A stretch of 20,428 nt of DNA, from positions 1 through 20,428 of IMG/VR virus record IMGVR_UViG_3300030045_000037. One strand, written 5' to 3'. The translations under genes and the position numbers were made by a program. A model generated the notes under the pieces. The model did not search any database, had not been told where the DNA came from, and saw nothing but the letters and a program-made list of their open reading frames with translations. Positions 337-14,100 of the stretch are shown piece by piece; the first letter of the stretch is position 1, and each line of letters starts with the position of its first letter. The DNA is from a virus.

Positions 337-724
337 TCTCTGGTCTTTGACGATCGCATTCCGCGGCCCGAACACATCGCTGCGGCTGACGTACAACAGC
401 GGTGAGAAGGCGCAGGCGGCATATGAAATGCTTAAGCGCCCCGCTCAGCCAGCGGAGGAATTTGACCGTGGCCTGGCGGCGACAACCTATGAGAAGGATA
501 TTGAGATCACGGACAGCTACGGCACCACTGCCATGGTGGACCGGGATGCGGTGATGGTGCATTGGATGACGCATTGCGGCAGCGAGGCGGAGGGCGCTAA
601 GGCGACGCAAATTTTAAATGCGCATGCGCAAGCCAGTCTACAACGGCAATTGGCGGCGGATCCGATGCTGAAGGGTGTGATTGGCGGCACTGGCGGCCAG
701 ACTCGCCAGCCGTTCCAGATGTGA
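329..724 (+). CDS. Hypothetical phage protein, 131 aa
   Basis: Mixed alpha/beta-looking protein. The N-terminal part (LWSLTIAFRGPNTSLRLTY) looks like beta strands, a middle part (about residues 40-80) contains TTYEKDIEITDSYG, and the C-terminal third is Ala/Gln-rich and helical (AEGAKATQILNAHAQASLQ). ATG 329 is preferred over ATG 323 because AAGGA at 316-320 lies 8 nt before 329 but only 2 nt before 323. The stop at 722-724 is one base before the J-domain gene start. Packaging-region neighbours suggest a phage morphogenesis accessory role, but no family is recognised and no helix-turn-helix typical of a small terminase is visible. Confidence 0.7.
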   Translation: MTDLWSLTIAFRGPNTSLRLTYNSGEKAQAAYEMLKRPAQPAEEFDRGLAATTYEKDIEITDSYGTTAMVDRDAVMVHWMTHCGSEAEGAKATQILNAHAQASLQRQLAADPMLKGVIGGTGGQTRQPFQM

Positions 725-725
725 C

Positions 726-1346
726 ATGCCGGACCTCTATGCCATCCTGGGCGTGCCGCGCGATGCGGACACTGCGACAATCCGAAAGGCATATCGCAAG
801 GCATCAAAGCGCGCGCACCCGGATGGCGGCGGCACGGCAGAGAAATTCCGCGCCGTGAGCAAAGCGCTGGAAGTCTTGAGCGATGCCGGGCGCCGCAAGG
901 CTTACGATGAGACCGGCACAATCGAGGATAAGCCGGTCGATAACGCGCAAAGCGAACTGATGGGCATTGTCTCGGCGTTGCTGGACGCAGTGCTTGGCGA
1001 TCTGGATCAGGGCGGCATTCCTTACGAGGCGGCTGATCTGGTGCAGCGCATGACCAAGTTGGCGTCTGATCGCCAGATTCATATTCATCAGCAGCGCGCC
1101 AAACTGAAGGCCAACATCACCAAGCAGAAGCGGTTGTTCAAGCGCTTTAAGCTGAAGGGTACTGGCGAGAACTTTATGGAGGCTCTGATTGTCGGGCGCA
1201 TCGCCTTTCTGGAAGGTCAGGACGCGCAGGCGCAGCGGCAGACCGATCAGATGCGCAAGGCGGAGTTGTTTATTCGAGAATACAAATTTGAGAGCGAGAA
1301 TGTGTCGCCGCCATCACGATATGGCTATCAGGTTATGACATGGTAA
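726..1346 (+). CDS. J-domain (DnaJ-like) co-chaperone protein, 206 aa
   Basis: Residues 1-62 are a clear N-terminal J domain. LYAILGV begins helix I, KAYRKASKRA forms helix II, the invariant HPD tripeptide is at residues 31-33, and FRAVSKALEVLSDAGRRKAYDE gives helices III and IV. J domains bind Hsp70 (DnaK) and trigger its ATPase. There is no Gly/Phe-rich linker, zinc-binding region or DnaJ C-terminal domain, so this is a J-domain fusion rather than host DnaJ. Residues 75-206 look helical, with a strongly basic stretch (KLKANITKQKRLFKRFKLKG, about residues 133-152) that might touch nucleic acid. ATG 726 is chosen because the J domain begins right there. A longer in-frame extension to 681 would overlap the upstream gene. 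Its last 7 bases overlap the terminase gene, so the two are probably translationally coupled. Directly upstream of terL is where a small terminase often sits. Whether this protein does that job is not shown. Confidence 0.9.
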   Translation: MPDLYAILGVPRDADTATIRKAYRKASKRAHPDGGGTAEKFRAVSKALEVLSDAGRRKAYDETGTIEDKPVDNAQSELMGIVSALLDAVLGDLDQGGIPYEAADLVQRMTKLASDRQIHIHQQRAKLKANITKQKRLFKRFKLKGTGENFMEALIVGRIAFLEGQDAQAQRQTDQMRKAELFIREYKFESENVSPPSRYGYQVMTW

Positions 1347-3226
1347 AGCGCGCGACCAGATGGCTGCGGCCATTCGAGAATTTTCTTGGAAACATGCGCA
1401 TCGACTCCAAGGAAGTTGCGGCGGTCGATGAGCATGGCTCGCCGCTTAATCTATGGGACAGCCAGCGCATATTTTTGAATGAAGTGGCCTACGGCCTGGA
1501 AGATGGGCAGCACACATTCATGGCTCTCAAGGCGCGGCAGCTGGGCGTCTCAACTATCTCGCTGGCGATCGATATTTTCTGGTGCCTCGTGCATCCCGGC
1601 ATGATGGGCGCGCTGGTGACGGATACTGAGGCCAACCGCAATATCTTTCGCGCCACCATCGAGCGCTACATCAAGAATCTGCCGGTTAGTTTGGTTGGCG
1701 AAAACTTCAAACTGCCGCGCATCAACCGAGACTTCGTGCAGTTTCCGAACGGAAGCCGTCTGGATTTTTTGGTGGCCGGCACACGCAGCAAGGCGACATG
1801 GGGCGAGGGCCGCGGTTACACGCTGGCGCATTTGACGGAGGTTGCGAACTACGGCGATCCCAATGGTCTGGCTTCTTTTCGCGAGACGCTTTCTGAAACG
1901 CACCCCAACCGACTTTTCATTTACGAGAGTACCGCCAAGGGCTTTAATCACTGGAAGGATATGTGGGACGAATGCGCCCGCGATCCTTTCACCAAGCGCG
2001 GCATTTTCATTGGCTGGTGGGCCAAGGATCTCAATCGCATCCCGCGCAAGGATCGCCGCTTCCAACTTTACGGCCTTGACCAGCCGGACGGCCAGGAGGC
2101 TGAACTTATCAACGCGGTCAAGACCAGGTTTGATTTCGATGTCAGCATGGAGCAACTGGCATGGATACGTTGGCGCACATCGGACCAGAGCGCCGATGTC
2201 AGTAATATCTCTCAGAACCTGCCGTGGGTGCCGGAGCAGGCATTTATCTTCTCAGGCTTTTCGTTCTTCCAGACGCGCCTGATCGCCCGCGATCTCAGCG
2301 ACATGGACGACAACGAAAACGAATATGCCTTCAAGGCGTATCGCTATTGGATCGGCACGGACTTCTTTGCTACCAAAATGGAGCAGCTTGGCCAGGGCTC
2401 AAATCCGGATGAGTGGGAGCTGCGAGTTTGGGAAGAGCCGGTCAAGGCGGGTCAGTATGTGATCGGCTGCGATCCGGCCTTCGGGCGTAACGACTGGCGC
2501 GACAAGCATGCGATCTCCATCTGGCGCTGCTACGCGGACCGCTTGGTGCAGGTTGCGGAGTATGCCAGCCACAATATTGAGGCGCACCAATGCGCCTGGG
2601 TGCTGGCGCATCTGGCCAGCGCCTATAAGGATTGCATTGTCAATCTGGAATTGTCCGGCGGGCCAGGCAAGGCGATCATGCGCGAGTTCGACCGGCTGCG
2701 AAATTCTCTGCGTCAGGAAATGTACTCGCGCCAATTGAAAGAGTTCGATTGGGAAGATGTGCTGAACGGCATGCGCTGGTATCTCTATCATCGCCCCGAC
2801 AGCATGGGCGCCGGTTATTGCTATAACTTCCTGACGACGCGCGATTCCAAGTTCGACCTGATGAACCGGCTGCGCAGCGCCTACACCACCCGCGTTCTGC
2901 ATGTGCGCTCGCGCCCGCTGCTGGGTGAGATGCAGGCAGTGGTGCAGGAAGGTTCCACCATCGAGGCACCTGGCCGGGAGAAGGATGACCGCGTGGTTGG
3001 CGCGGCGCTGGCAAACTATGCATGGGACGATTGGATGCGGCCGCAGCTAATTGCCAACGGCATGACCTATGAGCGGGTACGGGCCGAAGAGGCCGGCGAG
3101 GCGAGCGCGTCGCGCGTGATAGTAGACCGCATCGTCTATAATTATTTCCAGCGCGCCGAGGAATTGGCGAATGAGGATCCGCGCGAGCGGGAGCCGAAGA
3201 TACTTTTGGATCGGGGGTTGGTATGA
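1340..3226 (+). CDS. terL: Terminase large subunit (packaging ATPase and nuclease)
   Basis: This is the motor that cuts concatemeric phage DNA and pumps it through the portal. The ATPase part has the terminase-type Walker A KARQLGVST (residues 64-72) and a Walker B-like strand YTLAHLTEV with the likely catalytic Glu at 167. The usual Asp before that Glu is replaced by Thr. The coupling motif YESTAKG is at about 195-201. The RNase H-fold nuclease has its acidic residues in GCDPAFG (Asp378), NLELSG (Glu437) and KDDRVVG (Asp549/550). At 628 aa it is slightly longer than many TerL proteins (about 450-600). It starts at ATG 1340, overlapping the J-domain gene, and ends in an ATGA overlap with the next gene. 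The motif order is complete, so it should be active. Confidence 0.95.
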   Translation: MVKRATRWLRPFENFLGNMRIDSKEVAAVDEHGSPLNLWDSQRIFLNEVAYGLEDGQHTFMALKARQLGVSTISLAIDIFWCLVHPGMMGALVTDTEANRNIFRATIERYIKNLPVSLVGENFKLPRINRDFVQFPNGSRLDFLVAGTRSKATWGEGRGYTLAHLTEVANYGDPNGLASFRETLSETHPNRLFIYESTAKGFNHWKDMWDECARDPFTKRGIFIGWWAKDLNRIPRKDRRFQLYGLDQPDGQEAELINAVKTRFDFDVSMEQLAWIRWRTSDQSADVSNISQNLPWVPEQAFIFSGFSFFQTRLIARDLSDMDDNENEYAFKAYRYWIGTDFFATKMEQLGQGSNPDEWELRVWEEPVKAGQYVIGCDPAFGRNDWRDKHAISIWRCYADRLVQVAEYASHNIEAHQCAWVLAHLASAYKDCIVNLELSGGPGKAIMREFDRLRNSLRQEMYSRQLKEFDWEDVLNGMRWYLYHRPDSMGAGYCYNFLTTRDSKFDLMNRLRSAYTTRVLHVRSRPLLGEMQAVVQEGSTIEAPGREKDDRVVGAALANYAWDDWMRPQLIANGMTYERVRAEEAGEASASRVIVDRIVYNYFQRAEELANEDPREREPKILLDRGLV

Positions 3227-5001: not shown

Positions 5002-5029
5002 GGCGGCGCTATTTCTTTTTTCCGCCGCC
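5002..5029. terminator. Possible hairpin between convergent genes
   Basis: A 7-bp perfect inverted repeat (GGCGGCG at 5002-5008 and CGCCGCC at 5023-5029) encloses a 14-base loop containing a run of six T. It lies where the lipoprotein gene and the portal gene converge, only 9 bases apart, so a terminator would be useful here. The T run is in the loop rather than after the stem, and the right arm also encodes the portal's Gly-Gly tail, so it is a weak candidate. Confidence 0.25.
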
Positions 5030-6805
5030 AGCGCCCTTTTGAAGCAACTCCGGATGCTGCTTTATCAATTCTGCTTCAGCCATTTTCTTGCGTTCCGCAT
5101 CTGCGACAAGCTCATCTTCCATTGGCGGATGGGTAAGTTCGATCAGGCGCTCCTGGCTGATAGCGCCGGCCTTGGCCAAAGCGAACACTAGCTCGCGGGC
5201 GTCGGACGCAAAGACTGGCGATGACGAATGGCTATCGACCGACACGCGCGAATCCTCATCAACGTCCTTAAGATAAAACTCGATTGCCTTCATCTTTGGT
5301 GCCGGCGGCTGAGCCAGAAGATCGCTGGGCGGCAAGGATGCCTGAATGCCGGCGTCTTCTTCGGTAACGTATGCTTTGAACTTCGTGTCGCTCTTTGCCT
5401 GCAGGATCATAAAGGCCAGCGCGCCAATTCTGGAAACCTGTTTTTCTCCGCGTAGCGCCCGGCGCTTTAGCCGCGGGCTCGCCATGCGCACCAGAGTCTC
5501 GGCATGGCCTTGGGCGCGAACGCCGGACTCGCCGCGACCTGACATCACCGCAGTTGCGTCCGCCATATCGTCAAAGATGCCCTCGGCTTCGTGCATGCTT
5601 TCATAGAGGCCGACAGGTATCTCCGGAAGTATAGGCTTGACTTCGGCGTTCGGGTTGGGATCCGTCATCCAGCCGCCAGGCTTGCGCAGACGGCTGATGG
5701 CGATTTCATTCTGGGACGATCCGCGTACAAACAGCGGCGGATCTTCCTGCTTGCGCAAAAGCTTGTTGATACCATCGATGCGGGCGTTGAGCGTCTTCTG
5801 TGCGAGACCGACGCACGCCACTTCCGAGCGGCCCCAGAAATAACCAGCGATTGGGTTAAGGCAAATTTCCGAGAATGGGTGCTGACCCTTGAGGGGATTT
5901 TCGTCATCGGCGCCGGACAGTGGATTGGTGGGATCGGTTGAGAAAATATTACGCTGGACGGTCTTGCCTTCCAGCACGCAGTCGGGGCCGATGAGCTGGA
6001 TCGTCACCCAGTCAGAGCGCTCAGTATCCCAAACCCATAATTCATCAAACTTGATAAGCCCCGCGAGCGTCTTTGGGGACCATGTTGGTGCCGGACCGGA
6101 CAACCAATTCACCAAGCCGCGCGAGGTCTGCGATGTGTTCTGGCCAGCGACCTGATAGGGATTGGTGCCGCCCAAGATAACCTGCTTGAGCATCGTGTCG
6201 CGATCGGGGCCTTCGCCATCCTTGGCTGGCGTGATGTAGGTCTGCGCGCGCTTCCATATTTCTTTTGCATCATGTCGGTCAGCGATCATCCGCTCAAATT
6301 CTTGCGGGATCATGTAGGTAGTTTGGAAAAACGCTTCCTGCCGGTCTAGCTCGCACACATCTTCGCGCATGACGCCCATAAATTCCGGCTGGATCATCCA
6401 TGCATCGATGCGCTTGTGCGATGGGTTCCAAAGTTGCTTTACGAAGGTCTTGCCTTTGATAAGAGCCCAGTCGAAAGCCTCGCATAATTTGAGATCGATA
6501 TCGGCGCCGCGGATTTGCGAGTTGAGTTCCTTGGCGGCGCGCGATCCCTTGGCGCGCTCTTCAGGCCCGACATCTTCCGGCGGAGTAACGGCAAAACGAA
6601 GGTCGGCCGGCGAGTAGATGTTGGAGGAAAGCTTTTCGATATAGGATAGCGTTTTGTTGTAAGTTTGCGGGCTACCGTTCTCGTCGCCGGTCAGATACAT
6701 CGAGCGATAAACGGCGCCGCGCTGAACGCGATCAACCAGCGAAACTGAGCAGTTTTGAATGACTTCTGTTGCCCAGTGGCCGATGTGCTTCTTGGGAATG
6801 CGCAT
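5009..6805 (-). CDS. Portal protein, 598 aa
   Basis: The portal is the dodecameric ring at one capsid vertex through which the terminase pumps DNA and to which the tail attaches. Length is normal for a short-tailed-phage portal. Supporting features are the helical start with YNKTLSYIEKLSSNIY, FDWALIKGKTFVKQLW (about residues 111-126), and the wing/stem signature HPFSEICLNPIAGYFWGRS (about 309-327). A long helix follows (LNARIDGINKLLRKQEDPP). The motif GRGESGVRAQGHAETLVR and a Gly/Lys-rich C-terminus complete it. It is the only gene in the window on the minus strand, set between the packaging and capsid blocks, and needs its own promoter in 6806-6952. No good Shine-Dalgarno precedes ATG 6805. 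A TATAAA box lies just 3 nt upstream of the start on this strand. Confidence 0.88.
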   Translation of the reverse strand: MRIPKKHIGHWATEVIQNCSVSLVDRVQRGAVYRSMYLTGDENGSPQTYNKTLSYIEKLSSNIYSPADLRFAVTPPEDVGPEERAKGSRAAKELNSQIRGADIDLKLCEAFDWALIKGKTFVKQLWNPSHKRIDAWMIQPEFMGVMREDVCELDRQEAFFQTTYMIPQEFERMIADRHDAKEIWKRAQTYITPAKDGEGPDRDTMLKQVILGGTNPYQVAGQNTSQTSRGLVNWLSGPAPTWSPKTLAGLIKFDELWVWDTERSDWVTIQLIGPDCVLEGKTVQRNIFSTDPTNPLSGADDENPLKGQHPFSEICLNPIAGYFWGRSEVACVGLAQKTLNARIDGINKLLRKQEDPPLFVRGSSQNEIAISRLRKPGGWMTDPNPNAEVKPILPEIPVGLYESMHEAEGIFDDMADATAVMSGRGESGVRAQGHAETLVRMASPRLKRRALRGEKQVSRIGALAFMILQAKSDTKFKAYVTEEDAGIQASLPPSDLLAQPPAPKMKAIEFYLKDVDEDSRVSVDSHSSSPVFASDARELVFALAKAGAISQERLIELTHPPMEDELVADAERKKMAEAELIKQHPELLQKGAGGGKKK

Positions 6806-6837: not shown

Positions 6838-6884
6838 ACACCATATATCATGTTGACGAAGAAGCTAGTACGAGAATATGGTGT
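6838..6884. promoter_or_regulatory. Inverted repeat in the divergent control region, possible operator
   Basis: The 9-bp arms ACACCATAT (6838-6846) and ATATGGTGT (6876-6884) are perfect inverted copies separated by 29 bases. They lie in the 147-base gap between the portal gene (left-going) and the polybasic micro-gene (right-going), and the arms bracket the candidate rightward promoter. A regulator binding both arms could block it. The arrangement is seen directly. The regulatory role is inferred. No other repeat copy was noticed in the window. Confidence 0.35.
6853..6880 (+). promoter_or_regulatory. Candidate sigma-70-type promoter for the capsid operon
   Basis: TTGACG (6853-6858) matches five of six bases of the -35 consensus. 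At 16 bases' spacing there is AATATG (6875-6880), a weak -10. It points right, toward the micro-gene and capsid genes, in a divergent gap where a promoter is needed because the upstream gene goes the other way. Phage-specific promoters may differ, so this is a modest call. Confidence 0.35.
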
Positions 6885-6901: not shown

Positions 6902-6925
6902 GTTGGATCGAAATGGTTCTCCAAC
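6902..6925 (+). promoter_or_regulatory. Leader hairpin upstream of the micro-gene
   Basis: GTTGGA (6902-6907) pairs with TCCAAC (6920-6925), and GAA/TTC (6910-6912 and 6917-6919) extend the stem after a 2-base bulge, giving 9 pairs and an ATGG loop. It would sit in the 5' leader of the transcript from the candidate promoter, 14 bases before the AAGGAG ribosome site. It could stabilise the RNA or tune translation. Confidence 0.3.
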
Positions 6926-6939
6926 ACCCAAGTCTTAGC

Positions 6940-6945
6940 AAGGAG
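6940..6945 (+). promoter_or_regulatory. Strong ribosome binding site of the micro-gene
   Basis: AAGGAG is one of the best matches to the anti-Shine-Dalgarno in the window and lies 7 bases before ATG 6953. It is the main reason to treat the following 14-codon frame as a real gene. Confidence 0.55.
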
Positions 6946-6952
6946 CCAAGCT

Positions 6953-6997
6953 ATGAAACGCAAGGGTCGTAAGTCGAAGCGCAGCAAGCGCAAGTAG
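6953..6997 (+). CDS. Polybasic micropeptide, 14 aa
   Basis: The frame encodes MKRKGRKSKRSKRK followed by an amber stop. Ten of 14 residues are Lys or Arg, none is acidic, and the rest are Gly and Ser, as in protamine-like or nucleic-acid-neutralising peptides. It has its own strong ribosome site and follows the candidate promoter and leader hairpin, so it would be the first gene of the capsid transcript. The codons are mostly AAG and CGC, not rare ones, which suggests good expression rather than ribosome stalling. Possible roles are a DNA-condensing or capsid-interior peptide, or a leader peptide controlling the downstream genes. Tiny basic DNA-binding proteins are known in microviruses (protein J), but no relation is claimed. 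The frame stays open after the amber codon up to a TGA at 7082-7084. Confidence 0.5.
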   Translation: MKRKGRKSKRSKRK

Positions 6998-7007
6998 TCC
7001 GGTGAAG

Positions 7008-7040
7008 CGGTGAGGCGGGTTAACCGCCAGAGCCTCACCG
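7008..7040 (+). promoter_or_regulatory. Hairpin after the micro-gene
   Basis: CGGTGAGGC (7008-7016) pairs perfectly with GCCTCACCG (7032-7040) over 9 bp with a 15-base loop. A competing inner stem GCGG/CCGC is also possible. It starts 10 bases after the amber stop. No T run follows, so it is not a classic intrinsic terminator. It could end or protect the micro-gene transcript, attenuate the capsid genes, or affect reading through the amber codon. Confidence 0.4.
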
Positions 7041-7084
7041 TCCACCTACTTCGCCGCGCTTATCAGGGCAAAAGATTTTTCTGA

Positions 7085-7483
7085 ATGGACATGCCATCAC
7101 CAACCCCCGCCGCCGCTCCGCCCCCCATGGGCGGAATGCCGCCGCGCCCCCCGGCCCATATTGGTCCGGTCACAACGCCGAGCATCAATGGCGGCAATCA
7201 GGTTTCCGCTCATGCCGCGATCAAGAACGCCGCTGAGCTTCTCCAGCAGTCGCTCCTTCAGCTTCCGATGGGCGGCGAAGAGCACACCAAACTTCTCGGT
7301 ATCGTCAAGCAGCTCGCCGGCATGACTGCCGATAGTGCGCCGGACCCGCACGCGCAGATGCAGTCTCTTGTCGAGATGGCGCGCAAGGCTGGCCAGGGCG
7401 GCCCGCCCCCCGGACTCAATGGCGCCATGCCCGCCATGGCTCCCCCACCCCCTCCGCCAGACGCTTCGGCGGGGGCAGCTTAA
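7085..7483 (+). CDS. Pro-rich head-region protein of unknown function, 132 aa
   Basis: The two ends are Pro/Ala/Gly/Met-rich and likely disordered (AAAPPPMGGMPPRPP near the start, APPPPPPDASAGAA at the end). The core, about residues 42-105, is helical (SAHAAIKNAAELLQQSLLQL, EEHTKLLGIVKQLAGM, MQSLVEMARKAGQGG). ATG 7085 directly follows a TGA in the same frame and has no good Shine-Dalgarno, which would fit translation coupled to ribosomes ending at 7084. ATG 7091 is an alternative. It opens the scaffold-capsid cluster, so a role in head assembly or as a minor head protein is plausible but unproven. Confidence 0.8.
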   Translation: MDMPSPTPAAAPPPMGGMPPRPPAHIGPVTTPSINGGNQVSAHAAIKNAAELLQQSLLQLPMGGEEHTKLLGIVKQLAGMTADSAPDPHAQMQSLVEMARKAGQGGPPPGLNGAMPAMAPPPPPPDASAGAA

Positions 7484-7495
7484 CAGGAGATCGCA

Positions 7496-7681
7496 ATGGG
7501 CGACAGCACAGGCAAATTCCCCGGTCCGTACATAAATGACGTTCGTAAGGACGATCCGATCATGAAGCGCGTCCCGATGGACACGCTCGACATTGGCGCC
7601 CGCAAGTCCGGCATGCCGAAGTCCATGGATGACCAGGCCAAGATCCAGCATGTTGGCGAAGCCGCTTCGGGGAGGAAGTAA
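7496..7681 (+). CDS. Small hypothetical protein, 61 aa
   Basis: AGGAG at 7485-7489 lies 6 bases before the ATG, giving a strong translation start. The product is charged, Gly/Lys/Asp-rich and probably largely unstructured (MGDSTGKFPGPYINDVRKDD, then KRVPMDTLDIGARKSGMPKS). Small proteins of this kind often lie between portal and scaffold genes in short-tailed phages. No family is recognised. It ends 3 bases before the scaffold-like gene and holds its ribosome site. Confidence 0.75.
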   Translation: MGDSTGKFPGPYINDVRKDDPIMKRVPMDTLDIGARKSGMPKSMDDQAKIQHVGEAASGRK

Positions 7682-7684
7682 GCC

Positions 7685-8281
7685 ATGAGTGAGACCGTCA
7701 CCGTTCTCAAGGCCGAACTTGATACGCTGCGTGCGATCAAGGCCCTGATGGACAAGACCTGGGACAGCAAGGAAACCGGCTCGAAGCTGCGCGCCCTGCT
7801 GAAGACCGTCGATCCGAACCTGAAAACTCCGGAAGACATTACGGATTCCGTGATTGCGCCGGTCAAGGGCGAGATGGAAGAAACCCGCAAGCAGGTCACT
7901 GGCCTGACTGAGCGCTTGGACAAGTTTCTGACCGAGACCAAGGACAAGGACGACACCGCCACGCTGCGCGCCGATCTGGCCAAAGCCCAGAAGAAATTTG
8001 GCCTGGATGACGAAGGTCTGACCAAGGTCATGCAGCGCATGAAGGACAAGAGCAATCCGGATGTGGAAGCCGCGGCCGCGTGGGTTGCCAGTGAGGCACC
8101 CAAGCCGATGCCGATTTCCGACCATGGCATTACCCCGCTTGGCGCCGATCTTTTCGGCACCACGAAGGAAGACGACAAGTGGAAGGGCCTGCAGACTGGT
8201 GGCGATCCGTTCCGCCCCGGTGGCTGGTTCGACCAGGAAGCGATCAAGATTCTCAACGAGCCGGCGGAGCAGGCGGCATAA
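7685..8281 (+). CDS. Probable capsid scaffolding protein, 198 aa
   Basis: The position directly before the major capsid gene and the composition fit a scaffold. It is Lys/Glu/Asp-rich, mostly helical, and has a probable coiled coil at about residues 58-100 (VKGEMEETRKQVTGLTERLDKFLTETKDKDD). A short Pro-rich hinge (APKPMPI) follows, then a C-terminal tail containing GGDPFRPGGWFDQEAIKIL. Scaffolds guide capsid assembly and then leave or are degraded, and their sequences diverge strongly, so the call rests on synteny and physical character. GGAGG at 7671-7675 is the ribosome site. No protease domain is seen. Confidence 0.65.
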   Translation: MSETVTVLKAELDTLRAIKALMDKTWDSKETGSKLRALLKTVDPNLKTPEDITDSVIAPVKGEMEETRKQVTGLTERLDKFLTETKDKDDTATLRADLAKAQKKFGLDDEGLTKVMQRMKDKSNPDVEAAAAWVASEAPKPMPISDHGITPLGADLFGTTKEDDKWKGLQTGGDPFRPGGWFDQEAIKILNEPAEQAA

Positions 8282-8316: not shown

Positions 8317-9372
8317 ATGGCAGCGTTTAGCGGTGGAATTACAGGGGGCATTGTCCCCGGCGGCGCAATTGGCGCGCAACTTGCGGCGATCACCCGCCGC
8401 GCGGCTGTGCCGTCCGTCTTCGTCCAGATTTACCAGGGGCATCCGCTTCTGTCGCTATTGCTTAGCAACGCGCAGTCGGCCAAGGGTGGTATCAGCCAGG
8501 TCACGATCCCGGCGCAGGGCGCATCCTTTGTGCAGTTCTCGTGGGGCTCTTTTGCCGGCGACTTCCCGATGCCGGAAGATCAGGCCGCGATTCAGAATGC
8601 CCAGTTCAATCTCAAGCTTGGCATGTGCCCGATTGGCTTCTTCGGCATGGAGGCGCTGATCCAGTCATCGGAAGTCATCATTCCGAAACTTCGCGCCGTG
8701 ATGAGCGACGCCGCGATTGTCATCAAGCAGAACTTCGCCAGCGCGCTCTACACCAACAACTATGCCAACACCTTGGCGTTCGACTCGCTCTATCAGGCGT
8801 ATGACAACGGCACAAATGTCCCAGCCTATGGCGGCATTACACGCGCCGGAAACCAGTGGTGGAATGGCCAGTACATTCCCAATCAGGCTTCCATTGCCAA
8901 CCGCACCGGCATGGCCATTACCCTGACCCGCGTGCAGAACGGCGCGGGCGGCGAGGCACCGGACTTTGCCGTGATGAACCCGGCCGATTGGGCGACGCTC
9001 ATGGCCGACTTCATGGGCTACGAGCAGTACCAGACCCGTCCGAAGTCGATCTACGGCAAGGATGATGTGGTCAACGCCGGCTTCCGTGCAATCCGCGTGC
9101 TGGACACGCCGATCTTCCCGGATCCCTTCTGTCCGCAGGGCGAGATGTACGCGCTTAATTCGCGTTATCTCGCGATGTATGTTTCCGAATATGCGCCGTT
9201 TGTGTTCTCCGGTTTCGAGTCAACGATTCCGCAGGGCCAGATCGCGAGCATCGGTGTTCTGATTTCGGCGCTCAACTTGGTCTGTGCAAAGCCTTCTTCG
9301 GGCGCGCATCTGACCGGGCTGGCAGCGCCGGCATGGCCTGGCGTCCTCGGCACAACGCCGGCCGTCATTTAA
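8317..9372 (+). CDS. Major capsid protein, HK97-fold type, 351 aa
   Basis: The length fits, as does the place between scaffold and connector genes. A Gly-rich N-arm is followed by VTIPAQGASFVQFSWGSFAG. A long helix (EVIIPKLRAVMSDAAIVIKQ) would be the spine helix. The block LAFDSLYQAYDNGTNVPAYG followed by GITRAGNQWWNG resembles the 'G-I-x-R ... W' section of many HK97-like coats. The P domain and A domain would follow, with FAVMNPADWATLMADFMGY near residue 220 and a hydrophobic end (IASIGVLISALNLV). It is strongly GC-rich with regular codons, as expected for a highly expressed virion gene. GGGGAG and GGAG sites precede the ATG. The exact capsid subfamily cannot be told by eye. Confidence 0.85.
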   Translation: MAAFSGGITGGIVPGGAIGAQLAAITRRAAVPSVFVQIYQGHPLLSLLLSNAQSAKGGISQVTIPAQGASFVQFSWGSFAGDFPMPEDQAAIQNAQFNLKLGMCPIGFFGMEALIQSSEVIIPKLRAVMSDAAIVIKQNFASALYTNNYANTLAFDSLYQAYDNGTNVPAYGGITRAGNQWWNGQYIPNQASIANRTGMAITLTRVQNGAGGEAPDFAVMNPADWATLMADFMGYEQYQTRPKSIYGKDDVVNAGFRAIRVLDTPIFPDPFCPQGEMYALNSRYLAMYVSEYAPFVFSGFESTIPQGQIASIGVLISALNLVCAKPSSGAHLTGLAAPAWPGVLGTTPAVI

Positions 9373-9393: not shown

Positions 9394-10473
9394 ATGGCAG
9401 GACCAGTTTATGGCGGCGCGGGCATCACGGGGACACTCCGTGGCCAGTCCACGAATGTTCTCAATTTGCAGGCGGGGCAGGTGGCACTTATCCCATCCGG
9501 CAAGTGGTATCTGGAATGCGGGCCGTATTGCGCGTACCAGGAATACGACATCATCACTGGCATCTGGCGCTCGATCGGCAACGATACGCGCGCCAGCCGG
9601 ACGGTCTATTCCGATGGCGCAAACTTCCGCGTTGCCAATCAGAGCGGCTGTGTTATCGGTGCCCTGCTGACCAATAAGGGTTCGGGGTACACTTCGGTCC
9701 CGACCGTCACCGATGCCACGACTGGCGCAGTGTATCAGGCCATTCTGGGTCCAGTGGTCAATACGGTCGTGACTGTCAGCAATGGCGGCACCGGCTACAC
9801 CTATCCTCCGATTGTGACGTTCTCGGCGCCGCCGCAGCCGGGCGTGCAGGCTACCGGCCATTGCGCGATTTCGGGCGGTATCGTCACCACCGTGACGGTA
9901 GACGATCAGGGCGCCGGCTACACTGTCAACCCGACCGTCACCTTCACCAATGATCCACGCGAGGGTCTGAATGGCGTTGCCATCGGCAGCGGTGCCCAGG
10001 CGACTGCCACCACGACCGGGGCACTGACCGTTGGCGCGGTTGTGGTTCTGGACCATGGCAACCCGGTCACGTCGATCCCGACCATCACGTTTGCGGGCGG
10101 CGGCGGTGCTTCCGCCGCGGCGACTTGCATCATGAACTGGGCGATCACGGCCTATACCGTCACCACTTCCGGCACCGGCTATACCGGCGTTGTGGAAGTG
10201 ACCGGCTTGGGCGGGTTCCCGGCGACGGGCGCGGCCTATACCAATCCCACGATCCAGTCCAACCTTCTGCGTGGGCGCCGTGCTTCGATCCTGGCGGCCT
10301 TGGCTACGACCTTCGCCAACATTACGGCGACGGGCCAGACCGTCTATGACGGTGGCGCTTATCCCGGCGTTCCGAGTGCGCTAGTGACTTCCACGTCGGC
10401 ATTCACAACGGCGGCCGGTCTTGGGTTTGCGGTTGGCGGTGTGAATGATACCTATCGCCTGTTCGCGTCGTAA
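9394..10473 (+). CDS. Head decoration or fibre-like protein with G-x-G-Y repeats, 359 aa
   Basis: Residues 1-85 form an N-terminal domain (QVALIPSGKWYLECGPYCAY, then DGANFRVANQSG), which resembles capsid- or fibre-attached phage proteins. Residues 86-290 are about five degenerate 35-45-residue beta repeats built on G-(S/T/A)-G-Y-T-x-x-P-x-V-T. Clear copies are GSGYTSVPTVT, GTGYTYPPIVTF and GAGYTVNPTVTF. A Gly/Ala/Thr-rich C-terminal part follows. Placed right after the major capsid gene with its own GGGAG site, it is probably an abundant surface protein. The same repeat appears in the large tail protein two genes downstream. No enzymatic motif is seen. The call is by position and repeats. Confidence 0.65.
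   Translation: MAGPVYGGAGITGTLRGQSTNVLNLQAGQVALIPSGKWYLECGPYCAYQEYDIITGIWRSIGNDTRASRTVYSDGANFRVANQSGCVIGALLTNKGSGYTSVPTVTDATTGAVYQAILGPVVNTVVTVSNGGTGYTYPPIVTFSAPPQPGVQATGHCAISGGIVTTVTVDDQGAGYTVNPTVTFTNDPREGLNGVAIGSGAQATATTTGALTVGAVVVLDHGNPVTSIPTITFAGGGGASAAATCIMNWAITAYTVTTSGTGYTGVVEVTGLGGFPATGAAYTNPTIQSNLLRGRRASILAALATTFANITATGQTVYDGGAYPGVPSALVTSTSAFTTAAGLGFAVGGVNDTYRLFAS
9649..10262 (+). repeat. Five degenerate G-x-G-Y beta repeats (protein-level)
   Basis: The encoded repeats cover residues 86-290 of the decoration-like protein. Four keep the G-x-G-Y core (copies 1, 2, 3 and 5), while the fourth has lost it (HGNPVTSIPTITFAGGGG). DNA identity between copies is low, so this is an old protein repeat and not a recent DNA duplication. 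Confidence 0.7.
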
Positions 10474-10537: not shown

Positions 10538-11317
10538 ATGGCGCAGGAACTTGGCTGGTATTTGAACGACGCCTCGGCTTTGCTCCGGGATTCGTCCAAT
10601 CTGTTCACATCACAAGCGCAGCTCACCCGCTGGATCAATCAGGCCAGGCGCGAGGCTGCCAAGTTTACCGGCTGTATCCGCGCGCTGATTGCTGGCACTG
10701 CCCCCCAAGGCAATAGCGCCCTCGCTGGAACGATGATCGCAGGCGCCGCCCTCGCCGGTCTGGACCAGCAGACATCTTTTGCCACAATCCCAGGCGTTGA
10801 GATGTACCCTTACGAGTTTGCCAATCCGTACTTGCGGGCGCAGAACGCCGGTATAAAGGCGATCATCGATGTTCTGGATATTTCGGTATCGTGGGGGGCG
10901 ACGCGGCCGACCTTGAACTGGATGCCGTGGGGAGACCTTCAGGCGCTGGCGCGGTCCTACAATGTCGGCGTGACCAGCTATCCATTTGCCTGGGCGTGCC
11001 AGGGTGATGGCACCCGCGGCAAGGTTTTTCTCTTTCCTATCCCCAGCGTTGGCGGCATCAGTGGTGAGATGGAGTGGGATGTTATTTGCATTCCGACAGA
11101 TCTTAATACCAACGATGACTATGACGCTATTCCGGAATCCTTTCAGGATGCGATCAAGTACCGCGCGGTCGCGCTTGCCCTCATGGCATCGTTTCGGTTT
11201 ACCGAGTCTCAGGTTCATACCCAGATGTTCTTGACTGAACTCGGTGTTGATCGCGCGTCAGCCAAGCGCGGCGCAGTTCAGAATTATTATTGGCAAACTG
11301 ATGTATTGGGCAGCTAA
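10538..11317 (+). CDS. Probable head-tail adaptor (gp4/gp11-like), 259 aa
   Basis: The N-terminal part is helical (ASALLRDSSNLFTSQAQLTRWINQARREAAKF), like the adaptor proteins that dock under the portal. The middle contains WMPWGDLQALARSYN and a strand pattern KVFLFPIPSVGG. It is followed by EWDVICIPTDLNTNDDYDAIPESFQDAIKYRAVALALMAS. That last 'P-x-x-L ... P-x-x-F-x-x-A-I-x-Y-x-A' pattern is typical of P22 gp4-like or T7 gp11-like connector proteins. The place between head genes and the nozzle-like gene agrees. GGAG at 10526-10529 supports the start. It ends in a TAATG overlap with the nozzle gene. The family is assigned by pattern only. Confidence 0.65.
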   Translation: MAQELGWYLNDASALLRDSSNLFTSQAQLTRWINQARREAAKFTGCIRALIAGTAPQGNSALAGTMIAGAALAGLDQQTSFATIPGVEMYPYEFANPYLRAQNAGIKAIIDVLDISVSWGATRPTLNWMPWGDLQALARSYNVGVTSYPFAWACQGDGTRGKVFLFPIPSVGGISGEMEWDVICIPTDLNTNDDYDAIPESFQDAIKYRAVALALMASFRFTESQVHTQMFLTELGVDRASAKRGAVQNYYWQTDVLGS

Positions 11318-14100
11318 TGCCGGACATCAATGAACAGGCCAAACTTAACGCCGCCGCATCAAGGAGTTTAGGGCGGCCAGAAGGCTTTGCGCTTTATTCG
11401 CCGTTTCCGTTTGGCGGGATGAATTATCAGTCTTCCAGAATAGCTATAACAGATCAAGAATTTTATTGGCGCGAGAATTTCGTCCGCATTGGTGATGGTA
11501 ATCTACGTACGACATGGGATGTTGGAACGCCGATTTATACTGCGTCCGGTAAAACCATTGTTTCATTTTTCTTCTTCTACATAGATGAAGATAATTTTGT
11601 GGCCATTTTCTTTTCGGACGGAACAGCAATTCAACTTGATCTTGATCTTGGTACAACCGTATCGATCAGCTCGACGGTGGGGACATTCTATCTTCCCGGC
11701 GGAAATCTCCCGGCGTGCGTGCAGTGGGGCAGTCAGTATCTCCTAATCTCAAACAACAACACGCAAAACGATTACTGGATTTGGGATGGAGATGGCGGAC
11801 CGCCGTTTGCCGGGCTTTATTCTGCGGGCGGTCTTGGTCCAGATGTAACGATCCTTGCCAATGGCAGCAATTATAATTCTACGCCGACGATGACCGTGTA
11901 CGGGGGCTCTGGCTCCGGTGTTGTCTTGAGCGCGACTATTCAAGATGGCGGCGTAGTTCTCTTGGATGTTGTTAATCCAGGAACGGGATATGAAGTTGGC
12001 GATCAGCCGCAAGTGGCGTTCTCTGGTGGCGGCAGTAATGACAGCGCCATTTTGGAAGCGGTGCTCGCGTCCGGTGGCGTGCTGGCTGTTGATATTACCG
12101 CCCATGGAACGCTTTACACGACTCCGCCGACAATAGGATTTTCCGGCGGCGGCGGGTCAGGTGCTGCCGCCACCGCCATAATGGGCGTGTCTGCAATTGC
12201 CATAACGGCCGGCGGAACAACTTACACGACGCCGCCAACTGTTGTGTTTACAGGCGGTGGCGGATCTGGCGCAGCTGGGGTTGCTGTAATTAGCGGCGGG
12301 GCCGTCATATCTGTTACCATGACCAATCGTGGGACGGGGTATACCTCTGCACCAGGCATTAGCTTCACAGGTGGCGGCGGATCTGGCGCGACAGCGACAT
12401 CCACTCTTTTTGTTATCGGCGCGACCGTCACGTTGCCGGGCTCCGGCTACACATCAAATCCGGCGGTTTTGATTTCAGGTGGTGGTGGGTCGGGTGCGAC
12501 AGCGACCGCCTATATTACGTCCGGCGGCATTGGTTCGGTTACTGTCGTATATGGTGGGACTGGGTTTATTACGGTTCCGACGTTATCAGTGGTTGGCGGC
12601 AATGGAACCGGGGCGCTATTAACGGCGGTTCTGGCGGCAACAAGCGTCTCATCTGTCGATGTTCAAAACGGCGGATCCGGCTTTTTTAATGCACCAGTCA
12701 TTACGCTTACAAGTTCAAGCGGGATTGGTTCTGGCGCTACAGCAACCGCTGTTTTACAGGGTGGTGCGATAGTTCAAATTGTCGTGACAAATGCCGGTAG
12801 CGGATACGAGGCGCCCCCGACCGTTCTCATTACTCCGAATGCTCTGGATACCTTGGCGACGGGGGCTGCGGCGGTTTCTGTTTTAGTCCCGACCTCAATC
12901 GCCTCCGTTATCGTGACGGCGGTGGGACAAGGCTACACTCAGACGCCGGCCGTTGTCGTTGCGTCAGGTTCTAATAATGCGGCCTATGCCACGCTTGAGA
13001 TGATGCCGTTTGGGGTGAGTGGAACGTCAATTGAAAGCTTTCAGAGTCGCGTTTGGCTCGCACATCCGTTTAAAGAGTTATCGCATAAGTCCACTGGCGA
13101 TGTTATTTTGGTTTCGGCGCCAGACTCGACAATTGATTTTGCGACTTCTGACGGCGGCCTCATCTACACATCCAATAGCCCAGTTTTGCGTCAGCACTAT
13201 ACTGGCCTAAAGGTTGTCGGAGATTTTTTATACCCTATTGCTGACTCTTCCGTTGACGTGATCTCAAATGTCCAGACTTCTGGCGATCCGATCACCACGA
13301 CATTCAATGAAAATAATACCGATCCTCAGACCGGCACGCCGTATCGCTCAACCATTCAGGATTATTCTCGCACGGCGCTCTTTGCCAATGCGCTAGGTGT
13401 TTTCGGCCTATATGGCGGCGCGGTGACGAAGGTCAGCGAGAAGATCGATGAGATATTCGAGAATGCTATTTTCCCGCCGTCCGCCGGGGCGATCACGCCA
13501 TGCGCGGCCATAGCCGAGTTGCATGAGAAAAAGTGCTACCTGCTTTTGATGACGGTATTGGACCCGCTCACCAATCAAAACCGCAATGTCATGGTTACAT
13601 GGGATGAGAAGGAGTGGTTCATTGTTAGCCAGTCCAACATGCCGATCTATATCGACACTAGAATTGTGGATAGCGTTCCCAGCGCGTGGGGAACGGACGG
13701 GAGTACGATCTACCAGATTTCCGCAACGCCATCTGCAAAAATCACTAAGAAGCTTTCCACCAAACTTTATGGGGCGAATAGTTTCCCCGCGGTCAAATTG
13801 GCGATGAGTCTGCATCTGATGGCAGAGGATAAGTCGAGCAACAGTGCCGGCGTTAGCTTCCAGACCGGAACGCTTGACACCGAAAACCAGCCTTATGCGC
13901 TAGAGGGCCTGCCGCTCAATTTTGGCGCCGGGGTGAAATCCACGCCAATCCTGGCGGCCTATAGTGGGGATATTTATGGCTGTTTCTTGGGGTTGACAAT
14001 CGCCTCGACATCGCCGGACTTTGCGTTGCAGCATATGGCTATCGGGTATAGAGTGATATGGGGCGGCTTCGGCTCGCCGCCCTCGATTGAAGGGAGTTAG
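11317..14100 (+). CDS. Nozzle/stopper-like tail protein with an internal repeat array, 927 aa
   Basis: Residues 1-170 and 562-927 read as the two parts of a beta-rich tail hub. The first has the typical FGGMNYQSSRIAITDQEFYW...ENF frame and WDGDG. The second has MPFGVSGTSIESFQSRVWLA, an all-beta body, and KCYLLLMTVLDPL followed by VMVTWDEKEWF. These patterns resemble P22 gp10-like or T7 gp12-like nozzle proteins, which close the DNA channel below the adaptor. Between them, residues 172-561 are about ten copies of a beta repeat (G-x-G-Y-x-x-x-P-x-V-x-x-x-G-G-G-G-S-G-A-x-A). Without that insert the protein would be about 540 aa. It starts in a TAATG overlap with the adaptor gene. The codons are visibly more AT-rich than those of the capsid genes, suggesting a different history. 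Confidence 0.65.
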   Translation: MPDINEQAKLNAAASRSLGRPEGFALYSPFPFGGMNYQSSRIAITDQEFYWRENFVRIGDGNLRTTWDVGTPIYTASGKTIVSFFFFYIDEDNFVAIFFSDGTAIQLDLDLGTTVSISSTVGTFYLPGGNLPACVQWGSQYLLISNNNTQNDYWIWDGDGGPPFAGLYSAGGLGPDVTILANGSNYNSTPTMTVYGGSGSGVVLSATIQDGGVVLLDVVNPGTGYEVGDQPQVAFSGGGSNDSAILEAVLASGGVLAVDITAHGTLYTTPPTIGFSGGGGSGAAATAIMGVSAIAITAGGTTYTTPPTVVFTGGGGSGAAGVAVISGGAVISVTMTNRGTGYTSAPGISFTGGGGSGATATSTLFVIGATVTLPGSGYTSNPAVLISGGGGSGATATAYITSGGIGSVTVVYGGTGFITVPTLSVVGGNGTGALLTAVLAATSVSSVDVQNGGSGFFNAPVITLTSSSGIGSGATATAVLQGGAIVQIVVTNAGSGYEAPPTVLITPNALDTLATGAAAVSVLVPTSIASVIVTAVGQGYTQTPAVVVASGSNNAAYATLEMMPFGVSGTSIESFQSRVWLAHPFKELSHKSTGDVILVSAPDSTIDFATSDGGLIYTSNSPVLRQHYTGLKVVGDFLYPIADSSVDVISNVQTSGDPITTTFNENNTDPQTGTPYRSTIQDYSRTALFANALGVFGLYGGAVTKVSEKIDEIFENAIFPPSAGAITPCAAIAELHEKKCYLLLMTVLDPLTNQNRNVMVTWDEKEWFIVSQSNMPIYIDTRIVDSVPSAWGTDGSTIYQISATPSAKITKKLSTKLYGANSFPAVKLAMSLHLMAEDKSSNSAGVSFQTGTLDTENQPYALEGLPLNFGAGVKSTPILAAYSGDIYGCFLGLTIASTSPDFALQHMAIGYRVIWGGFGSPPSIEGS
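11830..12999 (+). repeat. About ten tandem 37-42-residue G-x-G-Y repeats inside the tail protein
   Basis: Repeat cores seen in order are GSNYNSTPTMTV, GTGYEVGDQPQVAF, GTLYTTPPTIGF, GTTYTTPPTVVF, GTGYTSAPGISF, GSGYTSNPAVLI, GTGFITVPTLSV, GSGFFNAPVITL, GSGYEAPPTVLI and GQGYTQTPAVVV. Each is followed by a Gly/Ser linker and a short Ala/Thr strand. The central four to five copies are also similar in DNA (GGCGGATCTGGCGC is shared), suggesting more recent duplication in the middle of the array. Confidence 0.85.

Follow-up and report, generated by a model that had tools for sequence, protein, structure and literature searches.

A conserved, unannotated polybasic micro-ORF beside the head genes of a tailed-type phage family

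The micro-ORF and its gene neighbourhood

The DNA analysed here is a virus record of 20,428 bases, hereafter called the window. Between its portal gene and the genes of its head block lies a micro-ORF encoding a putative peptide in which ten of the 14 residues are K or R and none is acidic (Table 1). The ribosome site, 7-nt spacer, start codon, peptide and amber stop reported by the first-pass annotation were all confirmed in the window sequence, as was the basic composition. Counting both strands and nested starts, the window has 148 ORFs of 10-20 aa starting with ATG, and this one alone reaches a K+R content of 50%. No listed ORF of at least 60 aa overlaps it on either strand.

Table 1. Features around the micro-ORF, in window positions
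Feature	Position	Strand	Remarks
Portal protein	5009..6805	-	Identified by homology to portals annotated in relatives; oriented divergently to the micro-ORF in the window lineage
Sigma-70-like promoter TTGACG-18-TATGGT	6853..6882	+	1 found vs 0.2 expected in shuffles
Possible 5'-UTR hairpin GUUGGA...UCCAAC	6902..6925	+	Predicted fold, before the Shine-Dalgarno site
Shine-Dalgarno site AAGGAG	6940..6945	+	7 nt before the ATG; relatives pass a filter requiring a Shine-Dalgarno-like site
Micro-ORF MKRKGRKSKRSKRK	6953..6997	+	ATG at 6953, 14 codons, amber stop TAG at 6995-6997
Strong RNA hairpin	7000..7056	+	Right after the stop; -30.1 kcal/mol, z -3.71
Pro-rich 132-aa protein	7085..7483	+	Next gene of the head block; homologues follow the micro-ORF in relatives
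61-aa small protein	7496..7681	+	Homologues in relatives
198-aa protein, scaffold-like	7685..8281	+	Name inferred from position only
Major capsid protein (MCP)	8317..9372	+	phrog_9953 major head protein, E 1.7e-21

The micro-ORF is too short for gene finders, whose length cut-offs hide it. That it would escape annotation had been anticipated, and the two annotated relatives MW202825 and MW202753 indeed carry no calls for their micro-ORFs. In these two genomes, antisense 'hypothetical proteins' are called over both micro-ORFs (L035:8246-8506 and L036:4740-5038) and are probably miscalls.

As the peptide is too short for PHROGs and Pfam scans, these were applied to the neighbouring proteins, where they identified the MCP, some structural-protein families, a DnaJ domain and an SU10 adaptor; Pfam also gave two weak sub-cutoff matches among these proteins. 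The DnaJ-domain ORF (window 681-1346, E 2.4e-18) lies directly before a terminase-like gene (1340-3226). Downstream of the MCP, the regions 9394-10473 and 11317-14100 encode long proteins in which Gly-rich motifs recur. The product of the former matches head closure Hc2 as well as further virion protein families, and the region 10538-11317 matches the SU10 adaptor.

In the loci long enough to tell, the micro-ORF is flanked by the portal gene on one side and by the Pro-rich, scaffold and MCP genes on the other, i.e. relatives carry it at the position between portal and scaffold genes where the first-pass annotation had proposed to look for it. Portal gene and micro-ORF lie on opposite strands in the window and in 8 of the 109 loci with a portal match from the pattern scans described below (L131, L134, L142, L170, L173, L183, L212 and L241); the remaining loci have both on one strand. 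In the cases with an inverted portal, the micro-ORF stays on the capsid strand. A separate portal scan yielded 2 loci only.

Conservation, selection and distribution

Relatives were retrieved by capsid-protein searches, which gave 31 loci, a further 80 that were retained out of at least 578 relatives, and five from cellular genomes; the phage collection contains two relatives (MW202825 and MW202753). We examined 110 loci with a micro-ORF filter, i.e. an ATG-started ORF of 8-30 aa with K, R or H making up at least half of the residues and a Shine-Dalgarno-like site. This filter matched 131 times in the capsid-upstream regions (301 kb in total), vs 0 times in 502 kb elsewhere on the capsid strand and twice in 913 kb of the opposite strand.

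In 95 loci, more than 1700 bases precede the capsid match. Of these, 85 pass the strict filter, with the micro-ORF located 1281-2784 bases upstream of that match. Five more carry an N-terminally extended form (L043, L046, L048, L050 and L110; e.g. MNALPFEISIDKRGRKMHRKGRK) and L056 (read as L183, same contig) carries MTNLPVLDARHKGRKGRK. A basic micro-ORF of 10-23 residues is thus present in 91 of 95 loci, which are not all independent because they include L002, the window's own virus or a near-identical one (MCP 100%), and close pairs (L005/L006, L061/L062 and L008/L030). MCP identity to the window goes down to 38-39% in MW202825 and MW202753, each of which has two micro-ORF copies. The start, ribosome site and basic codons are retained in the relatives, and the first-pass reading was not refuted by this comparison. 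No cultured relative carrying the peptide was found. Further basic ORFs nearer the MCP pass the filter in L023 (3855), L026 (4070), L028 (1849), L042 (1368) and L052 (1126), and were excluded from later counts by the distance limit.

Selection on the peptide was assessed with a frame test on 26 micro-ORF pairs from 19 independent locus pairs with a capsid DNA identity of 80-98.5%. We counted 64 synonymous and 50 non-synonymous differences, distributed over the three codon positions as 28/17/69. The non-synonymous fraction was 0.439, vs 0.735 +- 0.041 expected, and none of 3000 random placements was as low; in the two shifted frames it was 0.867 and 0.894. In a looser test (32 pairs, MCP DNA identity down to 70%), the effect persisted and was smaller, with 170.5 synonymous and 201.5 non-synonymous differences and a non-synonymous fraction of 0.542 vs 0.740 +- 0.023. 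Amino-acid changes are hence avoided in the micro-ORF frame only, which answers the earlier suggestion to look for synonymous-site conservation. At the DNA level, the micro-ORF is no more conserved than its 3' flank (25.6% vs 13.4% differences, the flank value being biased low by gaps).

Composition is held while sequence varies. The C-terminal residue is K or R in 127 of 129 micro-ORFs and C in the other two, D and E are absent from 119 of 128, the stop is TAA in 110 of 129, and the net charge of the product averages +7.4 (range 5 to 10). The codons had been described as common ones, and this was borne out: CGT and CGC make up 87% of Arg codons in the 129 micro-ORFs vs 74% in MCP genes. What the loci have in common, and what selection maintains, is a short polycation encoded next to the head genes and preceded by a good ribosome site.

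The relatives were divided into clade A (L002-L064 and L110, minus L035 and L036; capsid identity of at least 56%) and clade B (the group at roughly 40% capsid identity). Over 90 loci with 129 micro-ORFs, 57 loci have one copy, 27 have two and six have three (43/9/1 in clade A and 14/18/5 in clade B), these numbers being lower bounds because the strict filter misses copies such as the first ones in L045, L109 and L111, which were seen by eye. In the 18 two-copy loci of clade B, identity is 0.45 between the copies of a locus, and between loci 0.50 for first copies and 0.66 for second copies, a modest sign that the copies may be separately kept. Three tandem basic micro-ORFs stand upstream of the head genes in L014 (1886-2148), L077 (3338-3563), L081, L082, L084 and L102. 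A pattern search for extra copies in 12 whole records matched 3 of them, with a pattern too strict for most known copies.

Distribution beyond the sampled relatives was surveyed by scanning viral contigs with two patterns. The first (SD-ATG-...-RKGRK-stop) gave at least 119 new loci, at least seven of the 119 being on contigs already sampled. Among the matches listed, 117 of 119 combine an ORF in frame with at least one homologue of a family gene (portal, capsid, terminase, scaffold or neighbouring proteins), the two exceptions being L133 and L237; the first 79 of these loci were inspected in detail. The second pattern (...RGKRK-stop) found 24 stretches, of which 18 are in frame within the same phage family (nine already sampled), four have no in-frame start and two are in frame outside the family. 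Among the matches listed, the micro-ORF is almost restricted to one phage family under these two patterns; forms with other C-termini outside the family would be missed, because both patterns fix the C-terminus. The two second-pattern contigs that are in frame outside the family, without a match to family genes, carry, on the minus strand, a Shine-Dalgarno-led in-frame MPVSRGKRK (L261:4228 and L262:3934), which may be due to chance or belong to another system.

Eight distant phages with weak capsid similarity, among 18 listed, were inspected with a looser filter (K, R and H of at least 35%, GTG and TTG starts allowed), i.e. Mx8, TM7 phage, Mwe-JY13, MW202803, MW202566, BUCT555, ppBjS10J-1 and Brad. 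None has a comparable intergenic ORF, and the lone ORF with at least 50% K, R and H is a GTG frame within a larger TM7 phage gene. Hydrogenobaculum phage 1 (first 16,826 of 19,351 bases) has two basic minus-strand frames without a clear upstream Shine-Dalgarno site. No publication describing such a peptide in tailed phages turned up in literature searches at the level of titles and abstract openings.

Given the filter counts vs controls, the substitutions limited to one frame and the near-restriction to one family, the micro-ORF is a real, conserved and unannotated peptide gene kept by natural selection.

Promoters and RNA structures in the two clades

A TTGAC motif was looked for in two intervals, one lying 61-120 bases upstream of the first micro-ORF and the other 40-100 bases downstream of the last. 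In clade A, the upstream interval contains the motif in 39 of 53 loci (4.0 expected) and the downstream interval in none of 53. In clade B the motif precedes the first micro-ORF in 9 of 35 loci (1.0 expected) and follows the last one in 29 of 37 (2.9 expected). From these positions, the micro-ORF looks promoter-proximal in the head operon in clade A and in the window, and placed mostly before the head promoter in clade B. The first-pass statement that the peptide heads the capsid operon therefore holds for the window, with its promoter-like site, and not for the second clade of relatives.

The 5'-UTR fold has a mean z of -1.21 in clade A, with 17 of 52 below -1.5, vs -0.16 (4 below) in the control; support for a 5'-UTR hairpin is weak, because RNAalifold predicted no pairs on the clade A 5'-UTR alignment. 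Hairpins after the last micro-ORF are common: z is below -1.5 in 41 of 53 loci in clade A (mean -2.79) and 28 of 37 in clade B, vs 23 of 90 in the control, and in 9 of 26 spacers between tandem copies. A terminator scan of the window found none, and the window's 3' hairpin is not a canonical intrinsic terminator because it lacks a T-run. Canonical terminators follow the micro-ORF only in some loci (L005, L032, L046, L048, L050 and L110).

Part of clade B has a predicted H-type RNA pseudoknot immediately upstream of the Shine-Dalgarno site that serves the last copy, with helices GGG/CCC and GGCUGCUU/AAGUGGCC; examples are L036:4819-4860, L085:3425-3465 and L103:1441-1480. A loose pseudoknot motif was found in 23 of 36 clade B loci and is absent from the window and from all 53 clade A loci. 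We collected 40 distinct sequences by motif and aligned 20 of them; 92.5% of cells pair, which is not an unbiased frequency because the sequences were picked by a motif with parts of both helices. Changes on both sides affect 18 cells vs 5.4 in shuffles. The covariation score is 0.211 vs 0.097 +- 0.016, with 0 of 500 shuffles as high, and reaches 0.347 vs 0.133 +- 0.037 for the first helix alone. The counts of pairs that covary (3) and of different pair types (8) lie within the shuffles (155 and 187 of 500), and the alignment slid by one column still scores 0.167. Rfam searches at gathering threshold on seven sources returned 0 matches.

Candidate functions of the peptide

Judging from its conservation, in-frame selection, composition, tandem copies and position, there is about an even chance that the product is a trans-acting nucleic-acid-binding polycation of 10-23 residues, involved in head assembly or DNA packaging; this is the simplest mechanism. 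We infer that the peptide is translated with high output, binds DNA and is present in the virion, and that in part of clade B it feeds back on its own mRNA via the pseudoknot. It would be made together with the head proteins and would bind phage DNA as a counter-ion or condensing agent, either in the head or on entering it; nucleic acid in the procapsid would be an alternative target. Some members may limit their own synthesis through structured mRNA, as T4 gp32 does. The DNA-condensing or capsid-filling role initially put forward for this putative peptide is compatible with these data. We propose more tentatively, and with some doubt, that a whole family of tailed-type phages uses directly encoded polycations, mostly 10-14 residues long and with one to three genes in tandem, to neutralise or organise packaged dsDNA, with pseudoknot feedback in part of one clade.

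Known systems offer partial likenesses. VP8 of SpV4, a polypeptide rich in arginine and lysine, is described as important for packaging of the DNA (PMC11281519). Like the micro-ORF product, J/VP8 of Microviridae (phiX174, SpV4) is a short Arg/Lys-rich phage product encoded in the capsid-gene region, and it is located inside the capsid. However, Microviridae are tailless and have ssDNA, whereas the genomes with the micro-ORF have a terminase and a portal. SpV4 VP8 ends in a buried Phe38, whereas the peptides described here, encoded by one to three tandem genes, end almost always in K or R, and this missing hydrophobic or aromatic C-terminal anchor counts against a packaged polycation. Adenovirus mu (X), a basic peptide of 19 residues with about 100-300 copies per mature virion and a DNA-binding precursor, is cleaved by a protease from a 79-residue precursor (PMC7998265), whereas the micro-ORF peptide is encoded directly, with its own ATG and stop. 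Since it has no buried aromatic C-terminus and is no cleavage product, we filed it with neither J/VP8 nor mu; by analogy, it may work like one of them. Gene 32 of T4 and RB69 has a pseudoknot 5' of its own Shine-Dalgarno site and a nucleic-acid-binding product (PMC535899). A candidate H-type pseudoknot occupies this position in part of clade B, whereas gp32 is a full-size ssDNA-binding protein and the motif is missing from the window and from clade A.

Other observations also count against a nucleic-acid-binding polycation: the micro-ORF is absent from four of the 95 loci (L027, L095, L113 and L114), the eight distant phages have no comparable ORF, and as DNA the ORF shows no higher conservation than its flank. 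In tailed phages, DNA condensation generally relies on a motor and small cations, which we counted on the same side, together with the hairpin after the ORF, which fits a regulatory leader in clade A. The chief rival is indeed a cis-acting leader peptide or attenuator, in which translation of the polybasic frame, slowed either within the exit tunnel or on reaching the stop, would control the 3' hairpin and read-through into the head genes. The trp and his attenuator leader peptides likewise consist of a tiny ORF followed by a hairpin, and clade A presents the order promoter, micro-ORF and close hairpin in many loci, with some canonical terminators. We nevertheless consider this explanation unlikely: in clade B, the ORF is mostly not between promoter and genes, the promoter-like TTGAC following the micro-ORFs (29/37), copies occur in tandem, the window hairpin has no T-run, and instead of runs of one rare codon we found common codons, Lys and Arg mixed and frequent synonymous changes. 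Because the promoter-like site for the capsid genes mostly comes after the micro-ORFs in clade B, a leader is probably not the shared function, and the first-pass alternative of a leader tuning the downstream genes is weakened, suited by the anatomy of clade A and at odds with that of clade B.

The remaining explanations are less probable still. An Arg-rich regulator acting in trans as antiterminator or repressor, for which lambda N is an analogue in principle, would bind structured elements in its own late mRNA, either hairpins or the pseudoknot. Structured RNA near the micro-ORFs in both clades and the candidate covarying pseudoknot before the last Shine-Dalgarno site in part of clade B speak for it, but the pseudoknot motif is limited to that part of one clade while the peptide character is shared, and no common loop was noticed among the 3' hairpins examined; we regard it as rather improbable. 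It is more doubtful again that the peptide is aimed at a host component such as the ribosome or RNA polymerase: tiny basic eL41 provides a model for a ribosome-directed peptide, and size, composition and conservation would suit, but in the loci seen the micro-ORF is located within the late head block. Finally, the absence of any gene, i.e. an ORF arising by chance over a DNA or RNA element that is itself conserved, would explain why the basic block tolerates much change and why the ORF is no more conserved than its flank. We rejected it as highly improbable on the filter counts (131 matches vs 0 and 2 in controls), the frame test, in which the synonymous excess appears in the micro-ORF frame only, the retained start, Shine-Dalgarno-like site and stop, and the uniqueness of the ORF among the 148 short ORFs of the window.

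If the reading as a nucleic-acid-binding polycation is true, these genes of mostly 10-14 residues would, to our knowledge, be among the smallest virion-morphogenesis genes. The micro-ORF serves as a marker of a largely uncultured phage family and gives a clean test case for pseudoknot autoregulation and micro-gene detection. Should the peptide be packaged, it would represent a protamine-like agent in tailed phages and would bear on how dsDNA is neutralised in their heads.
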